NCBI RefSeq assembly: GCF_024643285.1
Contig: NZ_JAMSLW010000007.1
Location: 62,001 to 126,000, forward strand
DNA length: 64,000 nucleotides
Reading direction: 5' to 3'
DNA from: Parapedobacter lycopersici
Lineage (GTDB): Bacteria > Bacteroidota > Bacteroidia > Sphingobacteriales > Sphingobacteriaceae
Part shown: in pieces, positions 44,483 through 47,375 of the stretch
How the letters are laid out: every line of letters begins with the position of its first letter
Position numbering within the stretch: the first letter of the stretch is position 1
Made by a program: the position numbers and the translations under genes
Notes under the pieces: model-generated
What the model was told of the DNA's origin: nothing
Seen by the model: the letters and a program-made list of their open reading frames with translations, nothing else
The model's database searches: none

Positions 44483-44513
44483 TTGCAAACCACTCCGAAT
44501 ATCATTATGTTTG
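44483..44513 (+). promoter_or_regulatory. Bacteroidota-type promoter of the TPP-riboswitch operon
   Basis: TTG at 44483-44485, a 20-bp spacer, and TATGTTTG at 44506-44513 fit the -33/-7 consensus (TTG, 19-21 bp, TAnnTTTG). Transcription should start about 44519, a few bases before the riboswitch. Confidence 0.7.
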
Positions 44514-44526
44514 TCCCGTAATAACA

Positions 44527-44601
44527 AAGCACGGGGTGCCGATTAACGGCTGAGATAATACCCGATAACCTGATTTGGATAATGCCAACGTAGGGATGCA
44601 T
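44527..44601 (+). promoter_or_regulatory. TPP riboswitch (THI element)
   Basis: The conserved blocks of the thiamine-pyrophosphate aptamer are in order: CGGGGTGCC (44532-44540), GGCTGAGATAATACCC (44548-44563), ACCTGATTTGGATAATGCCA (44568-44587) and ACGTAGGGA (44588-44596), with GCA/TGC closing P1 (44529-44531 with 44597-44599). It lies 70-140 bp before the first gene of the operon. Downstream, TTCTTC (44629-44634) can pair with GAAGAA (44664-44669) just before the ATG, a possible translation-blocking hairpin; that part is inference. Confidence 0.93.
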
Positions 44602-44670
44602 ACGACTAAAATCTGATTTTTTCCTTGCTTCTTCGTACCTATCCCAATCGGTTGCTGATCGCAGAAGAAC

Positions 44671-45393
44671 ATGGAAATACAACACAAAAATGCTGAATTA
44701 ATCCCTCCTGGCCAGCAAAATTGGCAGGGGCGGCCGGAATGGTTTTTTAACCGGGAACACACCGATACGTACGAGCAATGGTATGAGGGGCGCTACAAGC
44801 GCGCGGAAGTATGGCAAAAGAAAGTGATGGAACAGCTGGTTGCGGGAGATGGGCGGATAAAGACCCTGCTTGAATTTGGCTGTGGAACCGGCCGTTTTAC
44901 ACGGTGGTGGAAAGAAATTGACATCAAAGCCACAGGGGGAGATATCTCACCACTGATGCTTTCGCAGGCAATTCACCTGTTCGACGGCGATCTGGTTATG
45001 GCCGACTCACATGCGATGCCCTTTAAGGATCATACCTTTGATGCACTGGCATTCATCACCACTTTCGAATACTACAAAGACCCGGTTCAGGTAATCCGCG
45101 AGGCTGCACGTGTGGGCAAATACGGAATTGCCATGGGGATGATGAACCGTAATTCGACTAAAGTCGTCCGCCGCCGGGTCCAGCAGCTGTTCGGTAAAAA
45201 TCCCTTTTATATCACTGCCACATTTTACACACCCAAAACATTGCAGGATATTATCCATAAGGCACTTGCGGGCAGGGAATATACGATAACCTGGAGTTGC
45301 ACCGGACTACCATCCTGGTTTCCCGTGCAGCAATGGGGGATACCCTTCGGTGATTTTTTCGGATTATATGTACAATTCAACGATGTGCAGTAA
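44671..45393 (+). CDS. class I SAM-dependent methyltransferase, first gene of the TPP-riboswitch operon
   Basis: 240 aa. SAM-binding motif I is LEFGCGTGRFTRWW (67-80); motif II acid is in TGGDISPLML (88-97); motif III-like ADSHAMPFKDHTFDALAFIT (111-130) follows. An N-terminal Trp/Tyr-rich extension (WQGRPEWFFNREHTDTYEQW) precedes the fold and could be a substrate lid. Like UbiE/Methyltransf_11 proteins it should methylate a small molecule, but the substrate is not known. The next gene overlaps it by 11 bp. Control by TPP is expected from the riboswitch. A Trm112-like protein, a known kind of methyltransferase partner, is encoded as the last gene. Confidence 0.9.
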   Translation: MEIQHKNAELIPPGQQNWQGRPEWFFNREHTDTYEQWYEGRYKRAEVWQKKVMEQLVAGDGRIKTLLEFGCGTGRFTRWWKEIDIKATGGDISPLMLSQAIHLFDGDLVMADSHAMPFKDHTFDALAFITTFEYYKDPVQVIREAARVGKYGIAMGMMNRNSTKVVRRRVQQLFGKNPFYITATFYTPKTLQDIIHKALAGREYTITWSCTGLPSWFPVQQWGIPFGDFFGLYVQFNDVQ

Positions 45394-46453
45394 CAGCAGG
45401 GCTACTACCACAGGAAAACTAACAGACGTAAATTTCGACACTTGGGTCAGCGGGCGCTGCGGATCCCCACGGCGCGAAGTACGTATCGGCCCGCGGTTCG
45501 GTGTAGACGTTTCCTTAGTGGATTTACCCGGTGATATGGTGCTGGCACAGACCAGCGACCCGCTTTCGTTGATTCCTTCTTTGGGGCTGCAGGAGTCGGC
45601 TTGGTTATCGGTACACCTGATGGCCAATGACATGGCCACCACCGGCCATGCACCCCAGTACGGCCAATTTGTACTCAATCTCCCTCCGTCGCTGTCGACA
45701 GCTGATTTCAAAGCATATTGGGGCTATATTGATCGGTATTGTACCGACATCGGCATAGCTATAACCGGCGGGCATACCGGATTCGTTGCAGGACAGGAAT
45801 CAACCATTGCCGGTGGAGGTACGCTGACGGCGGTGTTACCCAAAGCAACTACACGTGTATCCAGTATGGCTCGTGTGGGTGACACCCTGCTCGTTACCAA
45901 ATCCGCTGGAATATCCTCGGCAGCGATACTCGCGATGAGCTTTCCGCATACGGTAAGGGATAGGTGCGGTGTGGAAATTCACAGGGAAGCCTGCAATGCT
46001 TTTTACCAAACATCATCGTTGTGCGATGCGCTCGCGGCGGTTGACATCGGTGAGGATAGGCAAGCGGTTTCCGCGATGCATGACGTAACGGAGGGTGGCG
46101 TACTTGGTGCCCTCCACGAACTGGCGGTCGCTTCCGGGAATGGCGCTATCGTATACCATTCGCAGCTACCCGTTGCGCCTGCACAAGCTGAAGTCTGTGC
46201 GGCATTTGGCCTTGACCCTTATTCGTGCATCGGTGCAGGCGCCATGATTATTGCATGCCGGCCAGCCACCGCCGGTCCCATAATCTCCCGCTTGTCACAG
46301 GACAGGATACCATGTGCCGAAGTAGGCAGGTTATGCACGTCGGCCGAAGGCATTCAACTGGAAAAAGACGGCGCACTTATCCCGTTTACTCGCAGCCAGT
46401 CGGACCCCTATTGGGCCGCTTTTTTAAACGCATATCAAACCGGACTGAAATGA
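45383..46453 (+). CDS. AIR-synthase-fold protein (HypE/ThiL-like)
   Basis: 356 aa from the ATG at 45383. It has the AIRS/PurM-like two-domain fold: an N-terminal acidic motif (FGVDVSLVDLP, 39-49), TSDP (57-60), ANDMATTGHAPQ (81-92, like HypE NDxAxxGAxP), GGHTG (129-133) and the C-terminal AMHDVTEGGVLGALHELA (231-248). Enzymes of this fold (HypE, ThiL, SelD, PurM, PurL) bind ATP and make acyl- or thio-phosphate intermediates. The TPP riboswitch and ThiE-like neighbour point to a ThiL-like role, but overall it looks closer to HypE. There is no HypE-type C-terminal Cys, so it is not the hydrogenase protein. The stop overlaps the next start (ATGA). Confidence 0.85.
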   Translation: MCSNSRATTTGKLTDVNFDTWVSGRCGSPRREVRIGPRFGVDVSLVDLPGDMVLAQTSDPLSLIPSLGLQESAWLSVHLMANDMATTGHAPQYGQFVLNLPPSLSTADFKAYWGYIDRYCTDIGIAITGGHTGFVAGQESTIAGGGTLTAVLPKATTRVSSMARVGDTLLVTKSAGISSAAILAMSFPHTVRDRCGVEIHREACNAFYQTSSLCDALAAVDIGEDRQAVSAMHDVTEGGVLGALHELAVASGNGAIVYHSQLPVAPAQAEVCAAFGLDPYSCIGAGAMIIACRPATAGPIISRLSQDRIPCAEVGRLCTSAEGIQLEKDGALIPFTRSQSDPYWAAFLNAYQTGLK

Positions 46454-47079
46454 AAAAAGATGTTAAAGACGGTGTATACCTTGTTATTGATCCCGCTATG
46501 GAACGAGGGCCCCTGTTTGAAAAATTACGGCAGGTGCCTTTGGGAAACTTGACTGCTGTACAATTATGGGATAATTTTGGCCCGAACGGAGTGGATGATA
46601 CACTGGTTGCCGAAGTGGCCGCTTTATGCCTTCCCTATGGTGTTCCATTATTGATGAACAATCATTGGGAATATACCCATTACACAGGCGTCGATGGAGT
46701 GCATTTCGACGAAATCCCGACTGATTTCGACACTATACAGTCGCAAATGTGTCCCACCGCTATCGTAGGGATTACCTGTAATAACGATTTAACCGTAGTG
46801 CGGTGGGCATCAGCACACCAATTAGACTACATTTCGTTTTGTTCCATGTTTCCATCTGCAACCGCCAACAGCTGTGATCGCGTCACATTTGAAACGGTAA
46901 AAGAAGCCCGTACCCTAACCACGTTACCATTGTTCCTCTCCGGCGGAATAACACCCGATAATATAGCAAAACTAAATGAACTGGATTATTCGGGCGTGGC
47001 AGTCGTATCCGGCATTTTATCAGCGGCCCAGCCTGCAGAATCGCTTAGGGCCTACCACCAAAAACTAAACAGAAGATGA
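46450..47079 (+). CDS. divergent thiamine-phosphate-synthase-like TIM barrel
   Basis: 209 aa. The ThiE/TenI fold is shown by VDGVHFDE (81-88, like GADGVHLGQ), VGITCN (106-111), LDYISFCSMFPSAT (125-139) and FLSGGITPDNI with GVAVVSGIL (162-190). Several catalytic positions differ from true ThiE: the INDR/IND motif is NNHWE (70-74), and the TxTK loop after FPT is replaced by SATANSCD (137-143), without the Lys. True ThiE joins HMP-PP to thiazole phosphate. With these changes it may bind the same substrates but run another reaction. Overlaps both neighbours by 4 bp. Confidence 0.85.
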   Translation: MKKDVKDGVYLVIDPAMERGPLFEKLRQVPLGNLTAVQLWDNFGPNGVDDTLVAEVAALCLPYGVPLLMNNHWEYTHYTGVDGVHFDEIPTDFDTIQSQMCPTAIVGITCNNDLTVVRWASAHQLDYISFCSMFPSATANSCDRVTFETVKEARTLTTLPLFLSGGITPDNIAKLNELDYSGVAVVSGILSAAQPAESLRAYHQKLNRR

Positions 47080-47375
47080 GATTACAAACCATTGAAAAAC
47101 TTTGCTGCCCATTTGACCGGACCGACCTTGAACTAACGGTTACCAGCCGTGATGTTGAAGATCGGGTTATTGCCGGCTTCCTGATATGTCCATCCTGCGA
47201 ACGTCTCTACCCCATTGTGAAAGGTATACCGATCATGAACCCTGATGAATACCGCGAGTTCCATCTGGAGCAACCATTGGTGCGCCAATGGGAGGCTTGG
47301 CTCAACGGGCGCTCGTTTACCAACTTCCGGCTCACCAGCGAAACAACACCAGAGACTCCCGGTTTCTCAAAATAA
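47076..47375 (+). CDS. Trm112-like small zinc protein
   Basis: 99 aa. It resembles UPF0434/Trm112: N-terminal KLCCPFDRTDLEL (8-20) with Cys10/Cys11, then FLICPSCERLYPIVKGIPIM (35-54) with Cys38 and Cys41. The first CPxC pair is degenerate (Asp in place of Cys), so zinc binding is uncertain. Trm112 proteins activate several methyltransferases by binding beside the SAM site. Here it closes an operon that begins with a methyltransferase, overlapping the ThiE-like stop by 4 bp. A partnership is inference. Confidence 0.8.
   Translation: MRLQTIEKLCCPFDRTDLELTVTSRDVEDRVIAGFLICPSCERLYPIVKGIPIMNPDEYREFHLEQPLVRQWEAWLNGRSFTNFRLTSETTPETPGFSK

Follow-up and report, generated by a model that had tools for sequence, protein, structure and literature searches.

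The operon and its relatives

The window analysed here is a 64,000-nucleotide stretch of the genome of Parapedobacter lycopersici (contig NZ_JAMSLW010000007.1, positions 62,001 to 126,000; genome of 3.62 Mb in 22 contigs, 99% complete), and the subject of this study is a group of four genes at positions 44483-47375 of the window, which follows a riboswitch for thiamine pyrophosphate (TPP). The features of the locus are the following.

44483-44513, + strand: Bacteroidota-type promoter, read from the sequence, with TTG at 44483-44485 and the -7 box TATGTTTG at 44506-44513
44522-44613, + strand: TPP riboswitch aptamer (RF00059, 70 bits against a gathering score of 54.3, E 1e-11)
44614-44670, + strand: leader between the aptamer and the first gene (MT), presumed to be the expression platform
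44671-45393, + strand: MT, class I S-adenosylmethionine (SAM) methyltransferase (Methyltransf_11, 5.6e-17)
45383-46453, + strand: AIRS, AIRS-fold protein of the HypE/ThiL/SelD superfamily (AIRS_C, 3.5e-17; AIRS, 1.3e-7)
46450-47079, + strand: TE, divergent ThiE/TenI-type TIM barrel (TMP-TENI, 1.3e-28)
47076-47375, + strand: T112, Trm112-like zinc-ribbon-type protein (Trm112p, 1.5e-7)

The four genes form a cassette that recurs in other genomes. An AIRS search among 100 relatives gave five genomes (own genome included) with an orthologue of at least 52% identity, and all five have the four genes and the TPP riboswitch. In a species-representative collection a query with the single protein gave no relative and the five-row AIRS alignment gave 274 loci; the best 80 of these 274 loci encoding AIRS relatives were used for the counts below. 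The order MT-AIRS-TE-T112 on one strand was found in 80/80 of them, and a TPP aptamer lies 5' of MT in all 80, and thus the arrangement is not a matter of chance. Whether the gene order and riboswitch recur elsewhere had been proposed as a check on an earlier, sequence-only reading of this DNA, and the answer is that they do. Of the 13 aptamers behind the model used for the 80 loci, 10 come from these loci and match by construction; in an Rfam scan of eight of the loci, all eight were above the RF00059 gathering score. By the names of their records, all 80 loci are from Bacteroidota, with genera such as Pedobacter, Mucilaginibacter, Sphingobacterium, Chryseobacterium, Riemerella, Arenibacter, Gramella, Flavobacterium, Algoriphagus, Cyclobacterium, Rufibacter, Aquirufa, Roseivirga and Mariniphaga. 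The surroundings of the cassette vary, and no fifth constant member was found among the 1,023 open reading frames (ORFs) compared, the next gene cluster being present in only 8/80 loci. When the first five loci and another 12 are added, the four genes are present in 97/97 sources, which include loci fetched twice and amount to 93-94 distinct proteins. Ten of the 12 extra loci were scanned, and nine have the riboswitch at the Rfam gathering score (L267 is without).

Two genomes carry the cassette twice: Arenibacter arenosicollis has two whole copies on two contigs (L053, L058), and Arenibacter sp. F26102 two on one contig, about 32 kb apart (L062, L064). Plasmid records gave no match to MT and only distant relatives of AIRS and TE. 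Phages gave two AIRS matches of at most 30% identity; one is annotated as HypE and comes from a record naming a Salmonella genome. A foreign origin of the operon was considered from its GC content, which gave no sign of it (50.7% in the operon, 51.2% in the window).

All four family assignments lie above the Pfam cut-offs. The hidden Markov model search thus bears out what the sequence-only reading had named (a SAM methyltransferase, an AIRS-fold protein, a ThiE-like barrel and a Trm112-like protein), and the Pfam families agree with its statement that none of the genes is ThiC, ThiG, ThiH, ThiD or TenA. The ORF coordinates likewise give the overlaps of 11 (MT/AIRS), 4 (AIRS/TE) and 4 bp (TE/T112) that it had read, the first of which hinges on the start chosen for the AIRS gene, with further in-frame starts at 45350 (GTG) and 45368 (ATG). 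No curated equivalog score of NCBIfam was reached by the proteins, neither for hypE (63.6 of 251.6 bits) and thiL (56.3 of 184.15 bits) nor for thiE (92.3 of 145.1 bits), and the scores for selD (47 of 125 bits) and Trm112_arch (58.6 of 77 bits) were likewise below the cut-off. The claim that the operon holds no standard thiamine gene needs one qualification: TE, far under the thiE equivalog cut-off, is nevertheless a ThiE-family homologue.

The consensus promoter and clear TPP aptamer described earlier upstream of the genes were confirmed, RF00059 being the sole Rfam match in the window at the gathering score. The -7 box consensus of Bacteroidota is TAnnTTTG, and this motif stands directly 5' of the aptamer in 51/80 homologous loci, where chance predicts about 0.02 per locus. 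TTG lies at the corresponding distance in 17 of those 51. A sigma-70 scan of the promoter stretch found no promoter; the scan model is of the E. coli type and the host belongs to Bacteroidota. Downstream, 81 sources were tried in a hairpin scan and 76 parsed. In 54/76 sources the aptamer is followed on its 3' side by a stem with 7 or more pairs close to a T-run, with 4.5 expected from mononucleotide shuffles, and this terminator-like hairpin suggests that TPP probably acts via transcription termination in most relatives. The pattern of hairpin and T-run was not found in the window's own leader (44614-44670), and free folding of that leader was no better than that of shuffles (z -0.02). Pairing against P1 3' of the aptamer had no support in the 76 sources either (mean longest complementary stretch 2.29, shuffled 2.12).

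The four proteins

MT is the most conserved member of the cassette, with a mean pairwise identity of 78.9% over 93 sets, followed by AIRS (59.1%), T112 (55.9%) and TE (45.9%, the lowest). In MT, 114 of the 240 residues are conserved at 97% or more. The Methyltransf_11 score is 62.6 bits (cut-off 21.2), and E68, G70, G72, D91 and D112, which we take to be SAM-binding residues, are kept in 97% or more of the 93 proteins. No named family was found for MT, as the best NCBIfam models were far below their cut-offs. Its structure model is of moderate quality (predicted local distance difference test, pLDDT, 72.5), and the matches of this model include the Trm112-bound Hvo_0019 (19-20% identity), its fold ranks being weak evidence. 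T112 scores 31.7 bits with Trm112p (cut-off 22), keeps C10, C11, C38 and C41 in at least 97% of 94 proteins and matches the haloarchaeal Trm112 of 6zxw/6f5z. Correlation of pairwise distances was highest for MT-T112 (0.83) and AIRS-TE (0.82), followed by AIRS-T112 (0.79), MT-AIRS (0.72), TE-T112 (0.63) and MT-TE (0.51); none of 500 permutations was as high for any pair, and shared ancestry inflates all of the values. This hints at MT-T112 and AIRS-TE as working pairs, with AIRS-T112 nearly equal.

Known Trm112 partners act on RNA and on proteins of translation, and the solved matches of MT include such enzymes (BUD23 and Hvo_0019 bound to Trm112). MT and T112 could thus mark RNA or protein and be linked to thiamine supply through regulation alone. 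We hold this to be very unlikely, since the pair is coupled to AIRS and a ThiE-family protein at all 80 loci. The high conservation of the SAM enzyme would also suit an operon that makes a thiamine derivative, methylated or modified in another way, or that detoxifies a thiamine analogue. Such a role seems improbable to us, as it leaves the absence of ThiC and ThiG from the genomes with the operon (see below) unexplained, as well as the repression by TPP if TPP is the substrate.

The model of TE is of high quality (pLDDT 95.4) and has the ThiE/TenI fold. Its best match in the PDB by E-value is TenI (1yad); ThiE (2tps) is one of those that follow, and it ranks above TenI by TM-score. Compared with the canonical ThiE of a congener (G006, locus L197), QLREK has become QLWDN, IND has become MNN, GQRD has become DEIP and TATK has become SATA. 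An alignment with Bacillus subtilis ThiE agrees for the changes in IND, GQRD and TATK, and the entry 3o16 (K159A mutant) pins the position of TATK to SATA in the TE alignment. We take R59, K61, D93, D112 and K159 of the B. subtilis enzyme to be the residues that bind Mg and the pyrophosphate of hydroxymethylpyrimidine pyrophosphate (HMP-PP), and these are changed in TE. Q38 and H85, which presumably correspond to the Gln and His at the pyrimidine site of ThiE, are kept, and W40, D87, C131 and C142 are newly conserved.

The closest solved structure of AIRS is HypE. In HypE a C-terminal cysteine takes the carbamoyl group, and the five aligned AIRS proteins have no such cysteine. AIRS also has GGHT and HDVTEGG in place of the GGDT and DVSDGL of ThiL. 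Its plasmid-borne relatives are found in 23 records (20 haloarchaeal and three others), at about 30% identity and a best E-value of 8e-37. The closest of them is an AIR synthase family gene of Haloarcula plasmids, which adjoins katG in 3/3 loci (L271, L274 and L275) and is divergent from genes for a thiamine-binding protein and a thiamine ABC substrate-binding protein in all three. At one Halobacterium and two Haloferax loci with an AIRS relative no thiamine genes were seen.

Thiamine genes and uptake in the carriers

Classical thiamine genes were searched in 30 genomes, of which 24 were hand-picked carriers of the operon (19 from the 80 named loci and five from the group of relatives, own genome included) and six were congeners without it. 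ThiC was found in one of the 24 carriers (G104, Ferruginibacter) and in five of the six non-carriers (Fisher P 2.4e-4, uncorrected for kinship), and ThiG above 300 bits in one carrier (again G104) and five non-carriers. The own genome, 99% complete, gave no match to ThiC or ThiG, the genes by which classical de novo synthesis is recognised. ThiD above 150 bits was likewise present in one carrier, compared with all six non-carriers. ThiD is the source of HMP-PP, and its near absence from the carriers fits the changed pyrophosphate and Mg positions of TE. In 19/24 carriers, own genome included, TE is the sole ThiE-family protein above 30 bits; the carriers G102, G104, G106, G116 and G117 have a second one.

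A canonical ThiL, at least 280 bits in score, is present in all 30 genomes, and this separate enzyme rules out that AIRS is the ordinary ThiL of the cell. Thiamine pyrophosphokinase (TPK) was found by Pfam in 6/24 carriers and 0/6 non-carriers. A divergent TPK-like family with the N-terminus MSSHHIV (L192:6676-7248, L191:5253-5855, G000:C18:336730-337296) scores 13 bits or nothing with Pfam, and in two carriers its gene has ThiE-like neighbours (L191, L192). It occurs in 9/24 carriers, own genome included, and in 6/6 non-carriers, and coincides with Pfam TPK matches in G101, G109 and G114. The Pfam result that the own genome is without TPK was dropped when this family was detected there. With both families combined, a recognised TPK is present in 12/24 carriers. 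Among the other 12, G104 has the classical genes, and the remaining 11 (G003, G008, G024, G045, G100, G106, G108, G112, G113, G115 and G118) have ThiL and no recognised ThiC, true ThiG, true ThiD or TPK. For thiamine monophosphate (TMP) in these 11, no source is known besides the operon, import of TMP or a kinase that escaped detection.

The membership of AIRS in the superfamily of ThiL, the 12 carriers without a recognised TPK and the adjoining thiamine-binding and transport genes of all three Haloarcula relatives would suit a phosphorylation module, in which AIRS, as a thiamine kinase, would convert imported thiamine to TMP and the other proteins would repair or remodel the imported thiamine. 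We find this improbable. A TPK-type gene is present in the other 12 carriers, a kinase alone needs no MT, TE or T112, yet these accompany AIRS at all 80 loci, and the Halobacterium and Haloferax relatives of AIRS show no thiamine genes nearby.

The relation of the operon to ThiC was also followed across the phylum, in 395 Bacteroidota genomes searched with the AIRS alignment (E 1e-30) and with ThiC. The operon AIRS was found in 13 genomes, all at 420 bits or more, and ThiC in 138, and the two were together in none, whereas 4.5 would be expected (P 0.003). Within the genus only (three carriers and six others) P was 0.048. The exclusion shows the same trend at every scale and is modest once kinship is considered. 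Of the 257 genomes in which ThiC was not found, the cassette is present in just 13, and it is therefore one among several ways to do without ThiC.

Most other TPP-riboswitch matches lie at genes that suggest uptake. In the own genome there are three TPP-riboswitch matches besides that of the operon, of which one (51.7 bits, below gathering) lies 5' of PnuT and an acyl-CoA-dehydrogenase-like gene and one (46.7 bits, below gathering) 5' of a TonB receptor. The riboswitch at G000:C18:7938-8034 on the - strand (L005; 55.8 bits, above gathering) is directed towards a gcvP-like gene of the opposite strand, into its 3' end, and no same-strand gene was seen downstream within the stretch inspected. Fourteen carriers gave 36 matches, 15 before the operon and 21 elsewhere. 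Of the latter 20 were inspected: 13 stand before a TonB-receptor-like gene (named by eye), three before PnuT and/or an acyl-CoA-dehydrogenase-like flavoprotein and four before no clear thiamine gene. A second TPP riboswitch with a TonB-receptor-like gene is thus found in 13/14 carriers (G118 being the exception), which favours the uptake of some thiamine compound. PnuT followed by the acyl-CoA-dehydrogenase-like flavoprotein gene was seen at L007:1718-3438 (G000 C1), L193:2159-3888, L247:376-1966 and L255:6369-7992, with a riboswitch match upstream in three of the four carriers; the Pfam basis for the pair is from L007 only. For Bacteroides thetaiotaomicron, an excerpt of PMC5613172 describes OMthi and PnuT as transporters of thiamine, with ThiL completing the biosynthesis, and the loss of the whole thiamine pathway has been described for Flavobacteriales auxotrophs in an excerpt of PMC12448291.

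Since the operon replaces the whole classical set while ThiL stays, it could also be a complete alternative route that builds TMP, or one of its rings, out of ordinary metabolites, in which the four proteins take the place of ThiC, ThiG/H/F/S, ThiD and ThiE and the carriers are prototrophs. With SAM and ATP as the means, AIRS would then close a ring in the manner of PurM, the MT-Trm112 holoenzyme would give a methyl group, and TE would perform a coupling free of HMP-PP. The Bacteroides arrangement, as far as the excerpt of PMC5613172 goes, likewise pairs biosynthesis with transport. De novo synthesis nevertheless appears unlikely, as a radical SAM enzyme, a sulfur carrier and a flavin enzyme are all missing from the cassette, and the TonB receptors and PnuT under TPP riboswitches suggest uptake. 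The one growth datum found concerns Riemerella anatipestifer: strain ATCC 11845 fails to grow in GCB medium if vitamin B1 is left out, according to an excerpt of PMC8383284, and the species is said to need thiamine in one of PMC3111989. The operon was seen in another strain (CCUG25054, L067), and ATCC 11845 is not among the 80 loci, so the growth datum, which is from a strain other than the carrier, leans somewhat against de novo synthesis. Furthermore, among the strains of a leaf collection, 100% of the 21 that do not need thiamine have ThiC, and 7% of the 14 that need it (PMC9666465, in excerpt).

Proposed role and known systems

The reading that we prefer, and to which we would give about an even chance, is that the operon encodes a TPP-repressed module of four proteins supplying TMP to ThiL from a thiamine-related precursor, and that it bypasses ThiC, ThiG, ThiD and HMP-PP. 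We read the operon as a supply of TMP because 11 carriers keep ThiL without a recognised TPK, ThiC, ThiG or ThiD. TPP binding to the aptamer would stop transcription of the operon. MT and T112 as a holoenzyme would use SAM on the precursor, AIRS would activate it with ATP, and TE may form or process the thiazole/pyrimidine skeleton, drawing on a donor that is not HMP-PP, after which the resident ThiL would convert the resulting TMP to TPP. An imported precursor (salvage) is favoured over one made in the cell, because most carriers examined have the second TPP riboswitch before a TonB-receptor-like gene. The sequence-only reading had placed the operon in work on thiamine or a precursor, which is supported by the riboswitch at all 80 loci and the rarity of ThiC, ThiG and ThiD in carriers. 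It had also proposed a salvage or modification route with a methylation step; the salvage part is favoured here, and a methylation may be read from the intact SAM-binding motifs of MT and from the presence of T112 as its partner in the operon. Its further suggestion, the making of a thiamine analogue, is a less likely possibility.

Several observations weigh against this role. One carrier (G104) has ThiC, ThiG, ThiD and another ThiE. In 11 others Pfam flags partial ThiG matches (20-32 bits, cut-off 23); these span a third to half of the profile, or less, and are taken for other TIM barrels. In the 12 carriers with TPK the operon is not the sole route to TPP, and a divergent TPK that was missed by Pfam once could be missed again. 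ThiL may be retained for other reasons, and the search for it covered the 24 carriers and six congeners. Without the 81 ThiC-positive genomes of family f52, P for the exclusion of operon and ThiC is 0.07.

The vitamin B1 status of environmental bacteria is usually predicted from ThiC and ThiG, and on this basis 23/24 of the tested carriers, which are without ThiC, would count as auxotrophs. If TMP is fed from a precursor that is not recognised, such predictions of auxotrophy are incomplete, and widely shared genes of unknown role would gain a function, with new chemistry for ThiE-, AIRS- and Trm112-type proteins. If instead the carriers make TMP de novo, those scored as B1 auxotrophs would actually be prototrophs.

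Among the closest known systems is that of Bacteroides, with thiSEGCHF-tenI, OMthi and pnuT-tnr3 (PMC5613172, in excerpt). Like the cassette it is a thiamine supply under TPP riboswitches with a ThiE-family protein and ThiL to finish the TMP, and in Bacteroides and the carriers alike a TonB receptor and PnuT stand elsewhere under TPP riboswitches. The cassette differs from the Bacteroides operon in having no ThiC, ThiG, ThiH, ThiF or ThiS and in adding MT, AIRS and the Trm112-like protein. A second comparison is with the ThiM-ThiE-ThiD operon of the congener G006 (L197; ThiM and TenA there named by eye), which has a TPP riboswitch in a genome without ThiC and ThiG and is apparently a salvage operon. 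It has standard kinases and a canonical ThiE where the cassette has MT, AIRS and T112.

The single proteins also have known counterparts. TE shares fold and family with ThiE/TenI and differs in the positions that we take to bind HMP-PP and Mg, as well as in the new W40, D87, C131 and C142. AIRS belongs to the superfamily of HypE and ThiL but is far below both equivalog cut-offs. MT beside T112 resembles the holoenzymes of Trm112 with a methyltransferase (Hvo_0019-Trm112, 6f5z; BUD23-TRM112), and both proteins match chains of such complexes. In the cassette, however, the pair stands in a thiamine-controlled operon, and the complex of MT and T112 is here suggested by the genes and fold matches. 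The set of genes had been held to be undescribed, and this agrees with searches of open-licence full texts, which gave no account of it (most subscription papers and bioRxiv lie outside that coverage). To that extent the set of enzymes is undescribed, whereas the type of operon, a TPP-regulated supply of thiamine, is known.

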